From assembly GCA_030432635.1 (NCBI GenBank), contig JAUIMB010000001.1:62001-126000 (forward strand): a stretch of 64,000 nt of DNA, in the 5' to 3' direction. This DNA is from Bacteroidia bacterium (GTDB lineage: Bacteria; Bacteroidota; Bacteroidia; Flavobacteriales; Flavobacteriaceae). The notes under the pieces were generated by a model. The model worked only from the letters and a program-made list of their open reading frames with translations, was not told where the DNA came from and did no database searches. Every line of letters begins with the position of its first letter. Position 1 is the first letter of the stretch. The position numbers were made by a program, and so were the translations under genes. Shown one piece after another: positions 55,612 through 62,069 of this stretch.

Positions 55612-56328
55612 TTAAGCTATCAATTCTAAGTCTTTTAACTTAATATTTCCCTCATAGATCGCTTTGCCAATAATTACAGCTTCGCATCCCAAGTCTTCAA
55701 GCTTATTAATATCAGAAATTGAAGCGACACCTCCTGAAGCAATCAAATTGATGCCCTCAACTTCATTGAGAATTTTTTCGTATAGATCGTAAGAGGGCCC
55801 TTGGAGCATGCCATCTTTTGAGATATCAGTACAGATTACATTTGATATGCCGTTATTACGATACATTTTTATAAATGGTATGATTTCAACACTACATTCT
55901 TCTTGCCAACCACTAATAGTAATTTTTTGATTATTACAATCTGCACCCAATATTATTTTTGCACTTCCATACTTGGCAATCCAGTTGTCAAACATAGCTT
56001 TATCTTTAACAGCGATACTCCCTCCTGTAATTTGTTTTGCACCTGAATTAAATGCGATATATACATCTTTATCCGACTTTATGCCACCTCCAAAATCAAT
56101 TTTAAGGTTCGTTTTAGCTGCAATTTTTTCCAAAACTTTATAGTTTATAATTTGATTGGACCTTGCACCATCTAAATCGACCAAGTGCAAATATTCTACA
56201 CCTGCTCCTTCAAAGGATTTGGCGACTTCAACAGGGTTTTCATTATAAATTTTTTTTGTGCTATAATCGCCTTTAGTAAGACGAACACACTTTCCGTTGA
56301 TGATATCTATTGCTGGTATGATTCTCAT
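55612..56328 (-). CDS. hisA: ProFAR isomerase
   Basis: A 238-residue TIM barrel homologous to His[22 protein letters not shown] holds the first Asp, and [15 protein letters not shown] the second. Isomerises ProFAR to PRFAR. Its start overlaps hisH by 4 bases. Confidence 0.96.
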
Positions 56329-56909
56329 AATTTCATAAAGTTTTTAAGTAATTGTTCCCCTTTCGCACTGCTTTTTTCTGGGTGAAATTGTACACCATAA
56401 AAGTTGTTTTTGTGAAGTGCTGCAGAAAAGCCAATATGGTATACTGAATTTGCAATGGTTTCTTTACAGTTTTCTGCATAATAGCTATGTACAGAGTACA
56501 TATATTCATTTTCATTAATACCTACGAAGAGTTCTGATTTTAGGTTATTGATGGTATTCCATCCTATTTGGGGAACTTTAACAACTTTATTAAAATGTCT
56601 GACTTTTACATCAAAAATGCCCAAGCCTTCAGTTTCACCTTCTTCTGTGTAATTGCACATGAGTTGCATTCCCAAACAAATCCCTAATACAGGTTGAGTT
56701 AAATTGGGAATAATACAATCGAGCTTTTTACTTTTTAGCATTCTCATTGCCGAACTTGCTTCACCTACTCCAGGAAAGATTATCCTATCAGCAGATTGGA
56801 TTGCACTAATATTACTGGTTAGTATGGCATCTACTCCTAAGCGCTTAAATGCTAATTGAATGCTTTTAATATTGCCAGTTCCGTAATCGATAATTACTAA
56901 TTTCATCAC
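56325..56909 (-). CDS. hisH: Imidazole glycerol phosphate synthase, glutaminase subunit
   Basis: A 194-residue class I amidotransferase. The nucleophile is in [12 protein letters not shown], with [10 protein letters not shown] giving His and Glu. [11 protein letters not shown] is the conserved N-terminus. It supplies ammonia to HisF. Overlaps hisB by 4 bases. Confidence 0.96.
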
Positions 56910-58039
56910 AAGACACCTTTTGTCGTTGGTAAAATCATTTTTTCAACATCTTGTTTGATGGCCATTTTTATAGCTTTAGCAAAGGCTTTAAATATGGCTT
57001 CGATTTTGTGGTGTTCATTAAACCCTTCTGCTTTGATGTTTAAATTACATTTAGCTCCATCAGTAAAAGATTTAAAAAAGTGAAAGAACATTTCGGTTGG
57101 TATTTTGCCTATCATTTCTCTTCTGAACTCAGCATCCCAAACTAGCCAATTCCTACCGCCAAAATCAATCACTACTTGTGCTAAACAGTCATCCATTGGC
57201 AGTGAGAAACCATAGCGTTCGATTCCTAATTTGTTCCCAAGTGCTTTAGAGAATACTTCTCCTAAGGCAATGGCAGTATCTTCTATAGTGTGGTGTTCAT
57301 CAACCTCTAGGTCTCCATCAACTTTTATGCTCAAATCTATTTGACCATGTCGCGCAATTTGCTCAAGCATATGATCAAAAAAGGCAAGTCCAGTATTTAT
57401 GTCATTTTTTCCTGTTCCATCTAAATTTAAGTCAATCTCTATACAAGTCTCTTTCGTGTTGCGAATAATATTTTCAATTCTACCCTCAGCCTTTAAAAAG
57501 GTATATATAGTTTCCCAATCGTCACTTTCTAAAGTGATGTAAGGTTGAAGTTCTTTGAGGTTTAAGGTAACTTCATCTATTCCCAAATTTGTGTTACTGT
57601 TTATATATATTCCTTTCGAACCAAGTTTTTTTGCCAGTTCTATATCTGTCAACCGATCTCCAATGACATACGAATTTTCTAGATCATAGTCATTTGAAAA
57701 ATATTTGGTCAGTAAACCTATGTTAGGTTTTCTGGTAGATGCATTATCTTTTGCAAAGGTCTTGTCTATAAATTGTTCTTCAAATTCTATTCCTTCGGCT
57801 CTAAAAGTTTTAATAATAAAATTGTGAATTGGCCAGAAATGGTTTTCAGGGAAAGCTTCAGTACCTAAGCCATCTTGATTTGTAACCATTACAATTTCAA
57901 AATCCAATTCATTTGATATTTTGGCTAAAAACTTAAATACTTTTGGATAAAATTCTAATTTTTCAAAGGAATCGATTTGCTCGTCTGAAGGCTCTTTAAT
58001 AAGTGTGCCGTCCCTGTCTATAAATAATACGCGCTTCAT
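56906..58039 (-). CDS. hisB: Bifunctional histidinol-phosphatase / imidazoleglycerol-phosphate dehydratase
   Basis: A 377-residue fusion. The N-terminal HAD phosphatase has [12 protein letters not shown] and [11 protein letters not shown]. The C-terminal dehydratase has [31 protein letters not shown] and [17 protein letters not shown], with its metal-binding His clusters. Performs steps 7 and 9 of the pathway. Starts 31 bases after hisC. Confidence 0.96.
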
Positions 58040-58070
58040 AGTTGCTTTTTTAAGTTGATTAAGAATGTTA

Positions 58071-59120
58071 CTAGGTTAGTGTTTTTAATGTTTGAATCAA
58101 TCTTATGTTTTCTGTTGGAGTACCAATTGTTAATCTTATACAGTTTTTACATAAGGGTTGGTTTGTTCTATTTCGTACCACAATCCCTTTATCGATGAGT
58201 TGTCTATATCGTTTGTTTGCGTCATCAACTTTAACCATTAAAAAGTTAGTACTTGATGGGTAGATTATGTTTACAATCGAAATGGTATGAAGTTCATTTA
58301 TCATCCATTTTCGCTCTTCCAATATTTTATTTATCTCAACTGAAATAGCTGAAATGTCTAATAGTTTGCTTATCGCTTTTTCCTGTGTAAGTTGACTTAT
58401 ATTATAGGGTGGTTTGATGCTATTTAAAATTGAAATAATTGCTTCAGAGGCATAGCACATACCAAGTCTGATTCCTGCCAATCCATAGCCTTTTGAACAT
58501 GTTTGGACAACTATTAAATTAGGGAATTCGTTTAGTTTGCAAGTCCAACTTTCGTACTCTGAAAAATCGATGTAAGCTTCATCAATGATGACAATTCCAT
58601 TGAATTCTCTTATAAGTTGCTCAATTTTACTGGAGTTGAAACTATTTGCTGTAGGATTATTGGGTACACATAAAAAGAGTAGCTTAGATAGACTATTCTG
58701 AGTATTAAGAATCACATCTACTTTGGGCTCAAAATTATTGTCTAGATTAACCCGAATTATTTCTATGGCATTCAAATTTGCTAGTACATCATACATACCA
58801 TAGGTAGGTGGCAAAGTGATAATGTTATCTTTATTTGGTTCACAAAAAGCTCTGAAAATCAAATCTAGGATTTCATCGCTTCCATTGCCTAACAGAATTT
58901 GATCAACAGGAACATTTTTTAATTCTGAAATTAATGTTCTTAACTTCACTTGCCTTGAGTCTGGATAACGATTGATTCCATTTTCAAAAGGATTCTCGTT
59001 GGCATCTAGATAAATTAGTCTGTCATCAATGATTGCATATTCGTCTCTAGCTGAAGAATAAGGTTCAATTTTTTTTATATTGTCCCTAATGAGAACAGAA
59101 ATATCTCTTGTTTTCATCAT
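58071..59120 (-). CDS. hisC: Histidinol-phosphate aminotransferase
   Basis: A 349-residue PLP enzyme. [51 protein letters not shown], and the Schiff-base Lys in [14 protein letters not shown]. Converts imidazole acetol phosphate to histidinol phosphate. A second ATG is adjacent (MMKTRD). Gap of 28 bases after hisD. Confidence 0.95.
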
Positions 59121-59148
59121 TAAAATAGTTTTGATTGACTTTAAATTA

Positions 59149-60444
59149 TTAATTGTCTTTAGTTATATCTTTCATTCGTATAGTAACAGCATTTTTGTGT
59201 GCTTCAAGTCCTTCAGCATTAGCCATTACCTCAATAGTGTTTCCTATATTTTGAAGACCTTCTTTTGTTATATGTTGGAAAGTTATGCTCTTTGTAAAGC
59301 TATCAAGATTAACTCCTGAATATGCCTTGCTATGTCCATTAGTTGGTAAGGTATGATTCGTGCCAGAAGCATAATCTCCAGCACTTTCTGGTGTAAAGTT
59401 TCCAATGAATACCGATCCAGCATTTGTTATGTTATCTGTAAAAAACTCATTAGACCCAGTACAAATTATAATGTGTTCTGGAGCATATTCATTTACCAAC
59501 TCTAGTGCAACTTCTTTAGAATTTACATATATGAGCTTTGAATTTTCAATTGCTTTTTGAGCGATTTCTTTTCGTGGCAAAAACCGTAACTGTTCCATTA
59601 TATCTTGCTTCACTTTGTTTATTAAAGATTTTGATGTTGATATAAGTATGACTTGACTGTCTGGACCATGTTCGGCTTGACTCAATAAATCTGAAGCGAT
59701 ATAATTTGATTTTGCAGTATCATCGGCAACTACCATTAGCTCACTTGGACCAGCAGGCATATCGATTGCGACATCAAACTTTGTAGCCAATTGTTTTGCA
59801 ACAGTAACAAATTGGTTTCCTGGTCCAAATATTTTATACACCTTAGGAATCGTGGATGTTCCAAATGTCATACCAGCAATAGCTTGAATACCTCCAACTT
59901 TCAATATTTTAGTAACTCTGCATAGTTGTGCTGTGTACAATATTTCATCAGGAATTTTACCTTTATTATTTGGTGGAGAACATAGAATAATATCCTTCAC
60001 ACCTGCTATTTGGGCAGGAATTGCTAACATTAATACTGTGGAAAACAAAGGTGCTGTTCCACCAGGAATGTATAATCCAATCTTTTGAATAGGTCGCTTT
60101 TCTTGCCAGCATTTAACACCTTTTGTGGTCATTACTTTTATTGCCTTTGTTTTTTGCGCCTCATGAAATTTTGAAATATTCTGTTTTGCAATCTTTATTG
60201 CCGATTTTAAGGTGTTAGAGACTCTTTTTGCAGCATCGTTAATCTCTTCTTGACTAACTTCTATGCTTTTTAAATGGCACTCGTCAAATAATTGCGTGTA
60301 TTTTATAATGGCTGAATTACCATTATTTTTGACATCCTCAAATATTTCAACAACTGTATTTTCTATTTCCTCAATGGATTTTGTTGGTCTTTTTAACAGT
60401 TCTGACCATTCGCTTTGTTTTGGATTCGTAATTACTTTCATCAT
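59149..60444 (-). CDS. hisD: Histidinol dehydrogenase
   Basis: A 431-residue enzyme started at the ATG at 60444, which overlaps the hisG stop (ATGA). A longer frame to 60468 lies inside hisG. It contains YIPGGTAPLFSTVLMLAIPA, GPGNQFVTVAKQLA, DMPAGPSELMVVADD, LSQAEHGPDSQ (zinc-binding region) and GDYASGTNHTLPTNG. Does the last two oxidations to histidine. Confidence 0.95.
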   Translation of the reverse strand: MMKVITNPKQSEWSELLKRPTKSIEEIENTVVEIFEDVKNNGNSAIIKYTQLFDECHLKSIEVSQEEINDAAKRVSNTLKSAIKIAKQNISKFHEAQKTKAIKVMTTKGVKCWQEKRPIQKIGLYIPGGTAPLFSTVLMLAIPAQIAGVKDIILCSPPNNKGKIPDEILYTAQLCRVTKILKVGGIQAIAGMTFGTSTIPKVYKIFGPGNQFVTVAKQLATKFDVAIDMPAGPSELMVVADDTAKSNYIASDLLSQAEHGPDSQVILISTSKSLINKVKQDIMEQLRFLPRKEIAQKAIENSKLIYVNSKEVALELVNEYAPEHIIICTGSNEFFTDNITNAGSVFIGNFTPESAGDYASGTNHTLPTNGHSKAYSGVNLDSFTKSITFQHITKEGLQNIGNTIEVMANAEGLEAHKNAVTIRMKDITKDN

Positions 60445-61298
60445 AATACCATATTTTCTATTGGACAAACAAGTATGCCTTCAGCTCCATTTTCCTTTAG
60501 CTCATCAATAACTGCCCAAAATTCAATTTCGTTGATTACAGAGTGTAAAGAACTCCAACCTTTTCTGGCTAATGGCATTATTGTAGGGCTATTAATACCA
60601 GGTAGGATGGATGTTATCTGATCTAATTTGTCATTACGAACATTTAAAAGAACATATTTGTTTTGACGTGCTCTTATAACTGATTGAATCCTAAATTGGA
60701 GCTTATCAAGTATCGTTTTTTTATCAGATGGTATTAAAGGTGAAACAGCAAGAACAGCTTCAGATGTAAAAAGCACTTCGGCTTCTTTAAGGCCATTCTT
60801 AAAAAGCGTACTACCACTAGAAACAATATCTACAATGGCATCAGCTAAACCAATATTGGGAGTTATTTCAACCGAACCATTTATGACATGTAAATTGGCA
60901 TTTACTTGGTTTTTATTCAAATATTGTCTTACAGTATTGGGATATGTAGTGGCAATTCGTTTACCCTCTAAATCTTGAATAGAGTTATAGTTTTTAGATT
61001 TTGGCACAGCTATAGAGACTTTGCAGGAAGAAAACCCTAGTTTTTCTATGAATGGAATAGAATTTCCCTTTTCGACAAGTACATTTTCTCCTATGATGGC
61101 AGCATCTACAATGCCATCATTTAGATATTGTGGAATATCACCATTTCTTAGATAGTACACCTCTAATGGAAAGTTCTTGGCAGTAACCTTAAGCTGGTCT
61201 CTAGCATTATCGATAGAAACACCAACATCTCTTAGGATGTTCATTGAGTCGTTATATAGACGACCTGATTTTTGAACTGCTATTTTTAATTTACTCAT
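60441..61298 (-). CDS. hisG: ATP phosphoribosyltransferase, long form
   Basis: A 285-residue enzyme; the length and C-terminal ACT-like domain (residues ~205-285) mark the long form that is feedback-inhibited by histidine and needs no HisZ. KIAVQKSGRLYNDSM, DAAIIGENVL, RIATTYPNTVRQYL and GSVEITPNIGLADAIVDIVSSGSTL carry the PRPP and ATP site. First enzyme and first structural gene of the operon, 58 bases after the attenuator. Confidence 0.96.
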   Translation of the reverse strand: MSKLKIAVQKSGRLYNDSMNILRDVGVSIDNARDQLKVTAKNFPLEVYYLRNGDIPQYLNDGIVDAAIIGENVLVEKGNSIPFIEKLGFSSCKVSIAVPKSKNYNSIQDLEGKRIATTYPNTVRQYLNKNQVNANLHVINGSVEITPNIGLADAIVDIVSSGSTLFKNGLKEAEVLFTSEAVLAVSPLIPSDKKTILDKLQFRIQSVIRARQNKYVLLNVRNDKLDQITSILPGINSPTIMPLARKGWSSLHSVINEIEFWAVIDELKENGAEGILVCPIENMVL

Positions 61299-61356
61299 TA
61301 TTTTTTGTAATAGTTTGAGTAAATCTTTGGGTAAGAATTCCTAATGATTAGAAACT

Positions 61357-61388
61357 AAAAAAACCGTTTGATTTACTCAAACGGTTTT
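61357..61388 (-). terminator. Attenuator terminator of the his operon
   Basis: On the minus strand AAAACCGTTTGA pairs perfectly with TCAAACGGTTTT (12 bp) around the loop GTAAA, followed by a run of T. The ascending arm can instead pair with leader-peptide codons 14-16 (see the leader feature). Confidence 0.92.
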
Positions 61389-61417
61389 CAAATATGTTGA
61401 ATTTATTCAATACATTC

Positions 61418-61471
61418 TCATCTCGCTTGAGTGCAAGTATGAAAATGATGATGTAATTGAATAAAAGTCAT
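61418..61471 (-). CDS. hisL: his operon leader peptide
   Basis: An 18-codon frame from ATG at 61471 to TGA at 61418, encoding MTFIQLHHHFHTCTQAR. Codons 7, 8, 9 and 11 are His, four of five in a row. Leader codons 14-16 (ACTCAAGCG, positions 61424-61432) can form 9 pairs (one G-U) with CGTTTGAGT of the terminator arm (61375-61383). A ribosome stalled at the His codons would leave this segment free and stop the terminator; a ribosome at the stop codon would mask it. An alternative hairpin TTGAAT/ATTCAA lies at 61397-61410. Confidence 0.85.
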   Translation of the reverse strand: MTFIQLHHHFHTCTQAR

Positions 61472-61488
61472 TTGTGTTTTTGTTTGGA

Positions 61489-61521
61489 CAAAGGTTGCAA
61501 AATTTATTTTGAATTTCCAAA
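61489..61521 (-). promoter_or_regulatory. Promoter of the his operon
   Basis: On the minus strand TTTGG at 61517-61521, then about 20 bases, then AACCTTTG (61489-61496; 7 of 8 to TAnnTTTG). Transcription would start near 61484, about 13 bases before the leader ATG. Confidence 0.5.
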
Positions 61522-61535
61522 TCATATTTATGATT

Positions 61536-62069
61536 TTAGAACTTTTCGTAATCATAACATGTTTTTAGATTTGCACATTGATCTTTGTAGGGTAACCAAC
61601 CCGCTACCTTCTTTTCGCCAATAATCAATACAATCTTTGCCCAAAGCTCACTGATTTCAGTTACTTGCACTTTTTGTCCATTATCTAATTTGTGTATCCT
61701 ATTGGAAGATGTGGTTGGGAGATCATAAATATAAGCGTGATCTTCGTCTTCATTTTTAACATAAAGATTGAAGTCACTATTTCTTACCCAAAAGTTTTTG
61801 TAATGATGTTCCTTATTCTTATTAGGAATTCTTTCTATAGTATTTATTTTAAACCAACCATAATCACTTTCTGTAATGGTTAATTTATACCATGTGTTTT
61901 CCTCTTTTGCATTTTGAAGTGTATCTACTATGCTCCCATTTTTCTTGTTGAAGATAAAAATAGGCTTGGCTTTATTTTCATAAAAGCATTTAACTGCATT
62001 AACATCATGTTCTTTGTTTTGAGCAAAGCAAAAAAAGCTACAACATGCTATTACAAAGAAGAATCTCAT
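61536..62069 (-). CDS. Secreted SH3-like domain protein
   Basis: A 177-residue protein with signal peptide (residues 1-16, ending CFAQ). The C-terminal ~60 residues (AYIYDLPTTSSNRIHKLDNGQKVQVTEISELWAKIVL) resemble a bacterial SH3 domain with ALYD-like and xWxKV elements. An N-terminal half with FIFNKKNGSIVDTLQN could be a second one. Three Cys in the mature part. It follows the prohibitin gene by 6 bases and so is probably in the same transcript. Function unknown; perhaps cell-wall binding. Confidence 0.7.
   Translation of the reverse strand: MRFFFVIACCSFFCFAQNKEHDVNAVKCFYENKAKPIFIFNKKNGSIVDTLQNAKEENTWYKLTITESDYGWFKINTIERIPNKNKEHHYKNFWVRNSDFNLYVKNEDEDHAYIYDLPTTSSNRIHKLDNGQKVQVTEISELWAKIVLIIGEKKVAGWLPYKDQCANLKTCYDYEKF

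Follow-up and report, generated by a model that had tools for sequence, protein, structure and literature searches.

In a 64,000-nucleotide stretch of Flavobacteriaceae DNA, hereafter called the window, the upper 5′ arm and loop of the intrinsic terminator ahead of hisG are fully complementary to a segment of 13 bases that lies past the terminator, 14 nt ahead of the hisG ATG. This pairing between the segments designated 3 and 5 (3:5) is the part that the first reading of this DNA, given in an earlier note, had missed, and its covariation among relatives marks it as very probably a real and selected RNA feature. Leader-peptide attenuators in textbooks end at the terminator; here a covarying pairing follows past it, at a set distance from the start codon, in many members of an order, the Flavobacteriales as judged by named relatives, whose phylum, the Bacteroidetes, has mRNAs without Shine-Dalgarno sequences (PMC6847099). 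We read segment 3 as a single hub which, being taken by segment 2, 4 or 5, would set transcription and probably also hisG translation, and we put the probability that 3:5 acts as a second, translational arm that frees the hisG start at roughly one in two. The plain prediction is that one ribosome stall governs both transcription and translation. His attenuation itself is not unknown in Flavobacteriaceae (PMC9723704), the group has few described attenuators, and the conserved element makes a compact RNA family for which the window gives no Rfam match.

The his leader and the classic attenuator parts

The gene hisG opens a his operon on the minus strand and starts at 61298; hisD, hisC, hisB, hisH and hisA follow downstream within 55612-60468, also on the minus strand, as named by recognition of their translations. 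The leader frame and the hisG frame are separated by 119 nt, and the terminator and the hisG start codon by 60 bases (Table 1). Upstream of the leader, the two motifs of the putative promoter, with 25 nt separating both TTTG, recur at the same place in many relatives (judged by eye). The pair resembles the Bacteroidetes sigma consensus TTTG / TAnnTTTG quoted in PMC7366714 and may serve as the his promoter; a sigma-70 promoter scan gave none. A frame of 177 aa with a signal-peptide-like start as judged by eye (61536-62069, minus strand) stops about 15 nt upstream of the putative promoter. The Rfam scan of the window returned 0 families at gathering score, and the 21 weak matches (E up to 10) in 61150-61650 do not include the enterobacterial His_leader family RF00514; those around the leader are unrelated families below their own cut-offs.

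Table 1. Features of the hisG upstream region (positions in the window)
Feature	Position	Strand	Basis
Putative promoter, TTTGG (61517-61521) and CAACCTTTG (61489-61497)	61489..61521	-	recurs in relatives
his leader frame MTFIQLHHHFHTCTQAR, ATG to TGA including stop	61418..61471	-	frame scan; kept in relatives
Leader His codons 7, 8, 9, 11	61451-61453, 61448-61450, 61445-61447, 61439-61441	-	frame translation
Segment 1 TTTATTCAAT, pairs with 61402-61411	61456..61465	-	fold; swap test
3′ partner of segment 1, ATTGAATAAA	61402..61411	-	fold; swap test; alignment
Segment 2, antiterminator 5′ strand ACTCAAGCG, leader codons 14-16	61424..61432	-	pairing and swap test
Segment 3, hub GTTTGAGTAAATC: upper terminator 5′ arm, loop and 2 nt	61370..61382	-	complementarity
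Intrinsic terminator hairpin 3:4	61359..61389	-	terminator scan; 13 pairs, one G-T; 5-base loop
Segment 4, terminator 3′ arm	61359-61371	-	
Terminator T run, 7 T	61357-61363	-	
Segment 5 GATTTACTCAAAC, full complement of segment 3 GTTTGAGTAAATC	61313..61325	-	complementarity and covariation
Segment 6 TGAGTAAATT, hisG start from T of ATG, pairs with GATTTACTCA of segment 5	61288..61297	-	
hisG, first his operon gene	60441..61298	-	translation recognised by name; relatives of the protein found

The earlier note had described a His-rich leader with four His codons, a terminator with a T-run, and pairing of leader codons 14-16 with the ascending arm of the terminator, and all three are borne out: the His codons lie in MTFIQLHHHFHTCTQAR, the hairpin and its T run are listed in Table 1, and ACTCAAGCG forms 9 pairs with CGTTTGAGT, one of them G-U. 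An in-frame ATG further upstream would make the leader 45 aa long; the inner ATG is the start that is kept in relatives. The leader RNA folds at -38.9 compared with -18.3 (sd 3.35) for shuffled sequences, of which 0 of 200 fold as well, and 2 terminator-like sites occur in 61000-62000 against a shuffle mean of 0.3. The leading edge of a ribosome reaches about 13 nt past the start of its A-site codon. With this general footprint a stall at codons 7-9 would free segment 2, and a stall at codon 11 would mask about four of its nine bases, so that the earlier claim of release by stalling at codons 7-11 would hold for the first three His codons and partly fail for the last. In most family genomes segment 2 begins 6 to 14 nt past the last His codon and ends one codon ahead of the leader stop, a placement which, given that footprint, suits a segment that is freed by stalling and covered once a ribosome stands at the stop codon. 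The tail of the leader peptide, TCTQA(R/S/K) in the window (61421-61438) and in relatives, overlaps segment 2, and its likeness may therefore reflect RNA pairing rather than the peptide.

The pairings were compared in a swap test, in which own arms are set against arms exchanged among 110 family genomes (the 114 with leader and terminator minus L109, L088, L158 and L092, where terminator or leader was misassigned); since swapping leaves relatedness in, the z-values are not probabilities. The terminator 3:4 scores 25.9 with own and 23.1 with swapped arms (z 19.0), the antiterminator 2:3 18.3 and 17.3 (z 6.3), and the 1:2 stem 17.0 and 14.8 (z 8.2), the latter exceeding the shuffled 95th percentile in just 48 of the 110. 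Covariation was read from 39 genomes, selected because they have 3:5 and aligned with MAFFT. There 3:4 is paired in 99.8% and 2:3 in 94.0% of cells, each with 14 two-sided changes; 1:2 is paired in 82.8%, with weak covariation and with slid versions that equal it on several measures. The first 2:3 pair links codon 14 of the leader (Thr, Ser or Ala), by its first base, to the second loop base, as A-U in 11, U-A in 8 and G-U in 3 of the 39 and unpaired in 17, a pattern by which leader residue 14 partly tracks the terminator loop. Of the 115 family upstreams that have a leader, a script found the terminator in 114 (4 of these being misassigned). The comparison with relatives suggested in the earlier note thus finds His-codon runs and terminator conserved, and compensatory changes between antiterminator and terminator arm are present. 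With each of the five ribosome states tried, equilibrium folding of the window puts the probability of 3:4 at no less than 0.99 and for this reason is unable to show a switch. With a His-codon frame before a his gene, an intrinsic terminator, an antiterminator exclusive with it, and the antiterminator within reach of a stalled or finishing ribosome by the footprint given above, the locus is very probably a ribosome-mediated his attenuator of the known kind.

Pairing of the terminator arm past the terminator

Segment 3 is able to pair with segment 2, 4 or 5. In the 39-genome alignment, chosen for this pairing, 3:5 is paired in 98.0% of cells with 40 two-sided changes, which 0 of 500 shuffles reproduced, and slid versions of it drop to 21-48%; the swap test in the 110 family genomes gives z 16.9. 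The statement of the earlier note that the mechanism is built of only two competing structures does not hold, as the 1:2 stem (weak covariation), 3:5 (strong) and a pairing 5:6 of segment 5 with the hisG start (weak) come in addition. Against dinucleotide shuffles (p<=0.01), 3:5 is significant in 17 of 22 same-genus upstreams, in 64 of 114 family members (the other 50 show no significant 3:5) and in 22 of 31 members of the order from other families, whereas none of the 17 from beyond the order has it at that level; it is also found in one named Saprospiraceae locus (L026) outside those draws.

The letters of the pairing change in concert. Loop and segment 5 read GCTAA with TTAGC, GACAA with TTGTT, GATAA with TTATT, GAACA with TGTTT and, in L087, GTATA with TATAC; L053, L076 and others have the GTATA loop facing an unchanged TTTAC with one mismatch, and GTCTGA arms are matched by TCAGAC in other genomes. 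Two loci of other families retain the pairing with wholly different letters and 14 nt before the ATG, L229 (TGCCGAAGTGTTT with AAACACTTAGGCA) and L228 (CTGGTCGCCA with TGGCGATTGG; p 0.015). On a HisG tree of 90 rows, of whose 86 inner branches 38 are weakly supported, joint changes of loop and segment 5 fall in several clades. Position was followed in 91 members with a 3:5 score of 20 or more (leaving out L109, L088, L158, L092, L240, L247 and L237), from which the 39 were drawn by a 5-base loop and a gap of 13-20; both sets were thus picked for 3:5, and swaps and shuffles do not remove relatedness. Segment 5 ends 13-17 nt ahead of the hisG ATG in 68 of these 91, while the spacing between terminator and segment 5 varies between 6 and 47 nt. 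A score of 20 is reached by 0 of 12 family members with <30 nt between terminator and ATG. A protein operator or a DNA inverted repeat was considered and set aside, because the pairs persist through G-U and letter changes. Segment 5 is transcribed after the T run; it therefore cannot alter that termination in the same transcript and would act later.

The hisG start and the possible role of segment 5

Pairing of segment 5 with the hisG start (5:6) was at first assumed to be the main constraint on segment 5, an assumption that was rejected because loop and segment 5 co-change where the hisG start does not. Its swap test gives z 7.4 in the 91 members and p 0.012 in the 18 whose hisG start is not ATGAG, from many of which it is absent; in the 39-genome alignment it is paired in 88.5% of cells, with a modest excess over shuffles and weak covariation. 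Start pairing is retained with different letters in L222, L228, L229 and L168, and in the GACAA clade an ACTCAT beside segment 5 faces the ATGAGT at the start. When the 91 members are folded with the terminator formed, the start core pairs to the spacer with 0.53, compared with 0.22 for shuffled spacers and 0.32 when segment 5 alone is shuffled; the real spacer is higher than the shuffled one in 81 and than the segment 5 shuffle in 75 of the 91, and just 22 rank within the top 5% when set against their own shuffles. Openness of the start core is 0.42 with real spacers, compared with 0.48 with shuffled ones and 0.50 when segment 5 is shuffled; since a shuffled spacer leaves the start paired elsewhere, the net closing is small. 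Enforcing 3:5 in place of 3:4 makes the start core more open in 81 of the 91 and less open in 8.

From these observations we propose the following sequence. When His-tRNA suffices, the leader ribosome would get to the stop codon and mask segment 2, segment 3 would pair with segment 4 and transcription would end; in transcripts that escape, segment 5 would pair with the hisG start codon and keep translation low. When His-tRNA is scarce, the ribosome would stall on the His run, 2:3 would form and RNA polymerase would continue. Segment 5 would then displace segment 2 from segment 3, with the terminator-loop bases left uncovered by segment 2 as a foothold, and the resulting 3:5 would exclude segment 4 and release the hisG start codon, its helix stopping just outside the landing zone of the ribosome. 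By the crude barriers given below, a transcript made with the terminator formed would stay shut, and one made with the antiterminator could go to 3:5 or 3:4. Stalling, termination and the handover from segment 2 to segment 5 are all inferred steps, as is the identity of 3:5 with the translated state, which is suggested by the more open start with 3:5, the last 13-17 nt left free, and start-zone data of PMC6847099, which reports that the region from -20 to +20 is little paired in Flavobacterium johnsoniae and that upstream adenines matter.

The handover is the step for which the modelled energies speak least. Across the 91 members 3:4 is more stable than 3:5 by a median of 4.5 kcal/mol, and crude barriers have medians of 23.4 kcal/mol from 3:4 to 3:5, 12.9 from 2:3 to 3:5 and 13.4 from 2:3 to 3:4, by which 3:5 would be reachable from the antiterminator and hardly from the terminator. 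From 2:3, the barrier to 3:5 is below that to 3:4 in just 45 of the 91. Given this and the greater stability of 3:4, the handover is not compelled, and as nothing in these energies would force the move to 3:5, it appears to be the weakest step of the mechanism.

A plain transcription attenuator, in which 1:2, 2:3 and 3:4 do all of the regulating and segment 5 contributes only to mRNA shape or stability after read-through, would account for the presence and conservation of every classic part, for the 50 of 114 family and 17 of 17 beyond-order members without significant 3:5, and for the small change of start openness that the real spacer brings (0.42 vs 0.48). We consider it unlikely, as 3:5 covaries almost like the terminator (z 16.9 vs 19.0), segment 5 keeps its place before the start codon and the pairing survives letter changes, which together argue for some selected function. 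This function could also have the opposite sign, 3:5 being a second OFF state that blocks hisG initiation until stalling, through 2:3, lifts termination and block alike. Segment 2 does compete with 4 as well as with 5 for the same segment 3 bases, and segment 5 of the window, at -27 to -15, touches the edge of the low-pairing zone from -20 to +20 (PMC6847099). Enforced 3:5, however, opens the start core in 81 of the 91, 5:6 belongs to the other state, and the 3:5 helix does not extend into the last 13-17 nt, so that we judge the reversed sign to be improbable.

Identical covariation would also arise from action in trans, in which the terminated leader RNA, abundant with histidine, would bind segment 5 of the full-length his mRNA through the loop and arm of its terminator and silence that mRNA. 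Attenuator-derived trans-acting RNAs are known, with rnTrpL as an example; here, however, each full-length RNA carries its own nearby segment 3, which should win, and this route seems very unlikely. For the preferred reading of 3:5 as a translational arm, a more far-reaching form can be put forward tentatively, at somewhat under even odds: an amino-acid attenuator found order-wide, in which the terminator 5′ arm and loop would be handed from the antiterminator to a segment past the terminator, one stall would set both transcription and exposure of the start, and the transcript would remember how it was made.

Distribution among relatives and known systems

In all, 203 loci were read, of which L207 was without a readable hisG; left out beforehand were L001, L029 (partial), L030 (the window again) and L031/L032 (the genomes of L002/L028). 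A scan of named genomes gave 28 hisG loci, 27 with an upstream region, and all 27 (mostly Flavobacteriaceae, plus two Saprospiraceae and a Reichenbachiella) have a His-rich short frame there. Within the genus, 22 of 23 genomes have hisG and 22 of 22 upstreams the His leader; the one genome without a hisG match (G004) is 99% complete. In the wider draws hisG was found in 110 of 129 genomes family-wide, 93 of 146 order-wide and 128 of 148 phylum-wide. The script recognised the His leader in 115 of 118 family upstreams, and in the three that fail it (L149, L169, L174) a frame containing two or three His codons can be read in the sequence. In the order's other families, 34 of 38 upstreams have the leader; the four in which no His leader was found (L231-L234) come from 600-kb genomes that keep hisG, and each of them still has a hairpin resembling a terminator (AAAAGCTTAC...GTAAGCTTTT) ahead of this gene. 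One other family (L093, L094, L214, L216-L218, L221, L223-L225, L227, L230) has a different leader peptide, of the MKPNFLTVHHYHHHLC type, whose antiterminator stretch starts at about the leader stop (L093, L214), and this family keeps 3:5. Beyond the order, a His-rich frame occurs in 29 of 36 upstreams, 17 of them with a terminator found by the script, under a loose criterion that accepts any start codon and asks for 3 His and one HH, and without a chance control; these 36 are mostly the better-scoring of about 111 matching genomes and lean to nearer HisG. Among the genomes outside the order (L095-L101 and L187-L205), many have His-rich short frames of unrelated sequence ahead of hisG, several with other terminators. 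Judged by such frames, counted without a chance control, leader-based his control may extend phylum-wide.

The enterobacterial his attenuator combines a His-codon leader peptide, an antiterminator and an intrinsic terminator before hisG. To our knowledge, a post-terminator segment 5 is not part of this classic scheme. The window shares leader, antiterminator and terminator with it (RF00514, His_leader) and differs by the extra segment past the terminator and by its lack of an Rfam match. The enterobacterial scheme is described in PMC9413887, which also covers his attenuators of Firmicutes, found by comparison and with the same three parts in another phylum; the term 'bacteroid' occurs 0 times in its main text. 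Closest in family and gene is Flavobacterium psychrophilum, for which PMC9723704 reports strong clues of leader-peptide attenuation before amino-acid operons and a hisG 5′ element conserved in other Flavobacteriaceae genera without Rfam hits. This element is like that of the window in family, gene, inferred leader-peptide attenuation and absence of Rfam hits, whereas the available text of PMC9723704 describes no segment 5, 3:5 or start-codon pairing. The earlier remark that a complete his attenuator is less documented in such genomes stands insofar as our literature search, made mostly without full texts, found no paper devoted to a his attenuator of Flavobacteriaceae, and has to be tempered by these clues and the conserved element. 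The same search gave no account of a post-terminator partner for a terminator arm. In the portions available, PMC8305728, which treats the his genes of this superphylum, speaks of attenuation for enterobacteria only, and a 2010 comparative paper on attenuation across bacteria, cited by PMC4833913, may list Bacteroidetes cases. The nearest mechanism is that of yxjB in Bacillus subtilis, where stalling on one leader peptide keeps an upstream terminator from forming and likewise a structure that sequesters the start region (PMC6851288). It differs in responding to tylosin, in that no overlapping antiterminator was identified there, and in the way the sequestering structure is built.

Other amino-acid genes of the genome that contains the window were also viewed. 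By eye, thrA has no such leader, and the ilvD family gave no match. Upstream of trpE (G000:C13, L212:810-950) lies a short frame with three consecutive Trp codons (834-842), whose start codon is unsure and perhaps a TTG at 810. A segment 5 equivalent is absent from this upstream region, with little room for one. A strong terminator follows the Trp frame, its T run ending 12 nt before the trpE ATG, and the region is likely a trp attenuator in the same genome.
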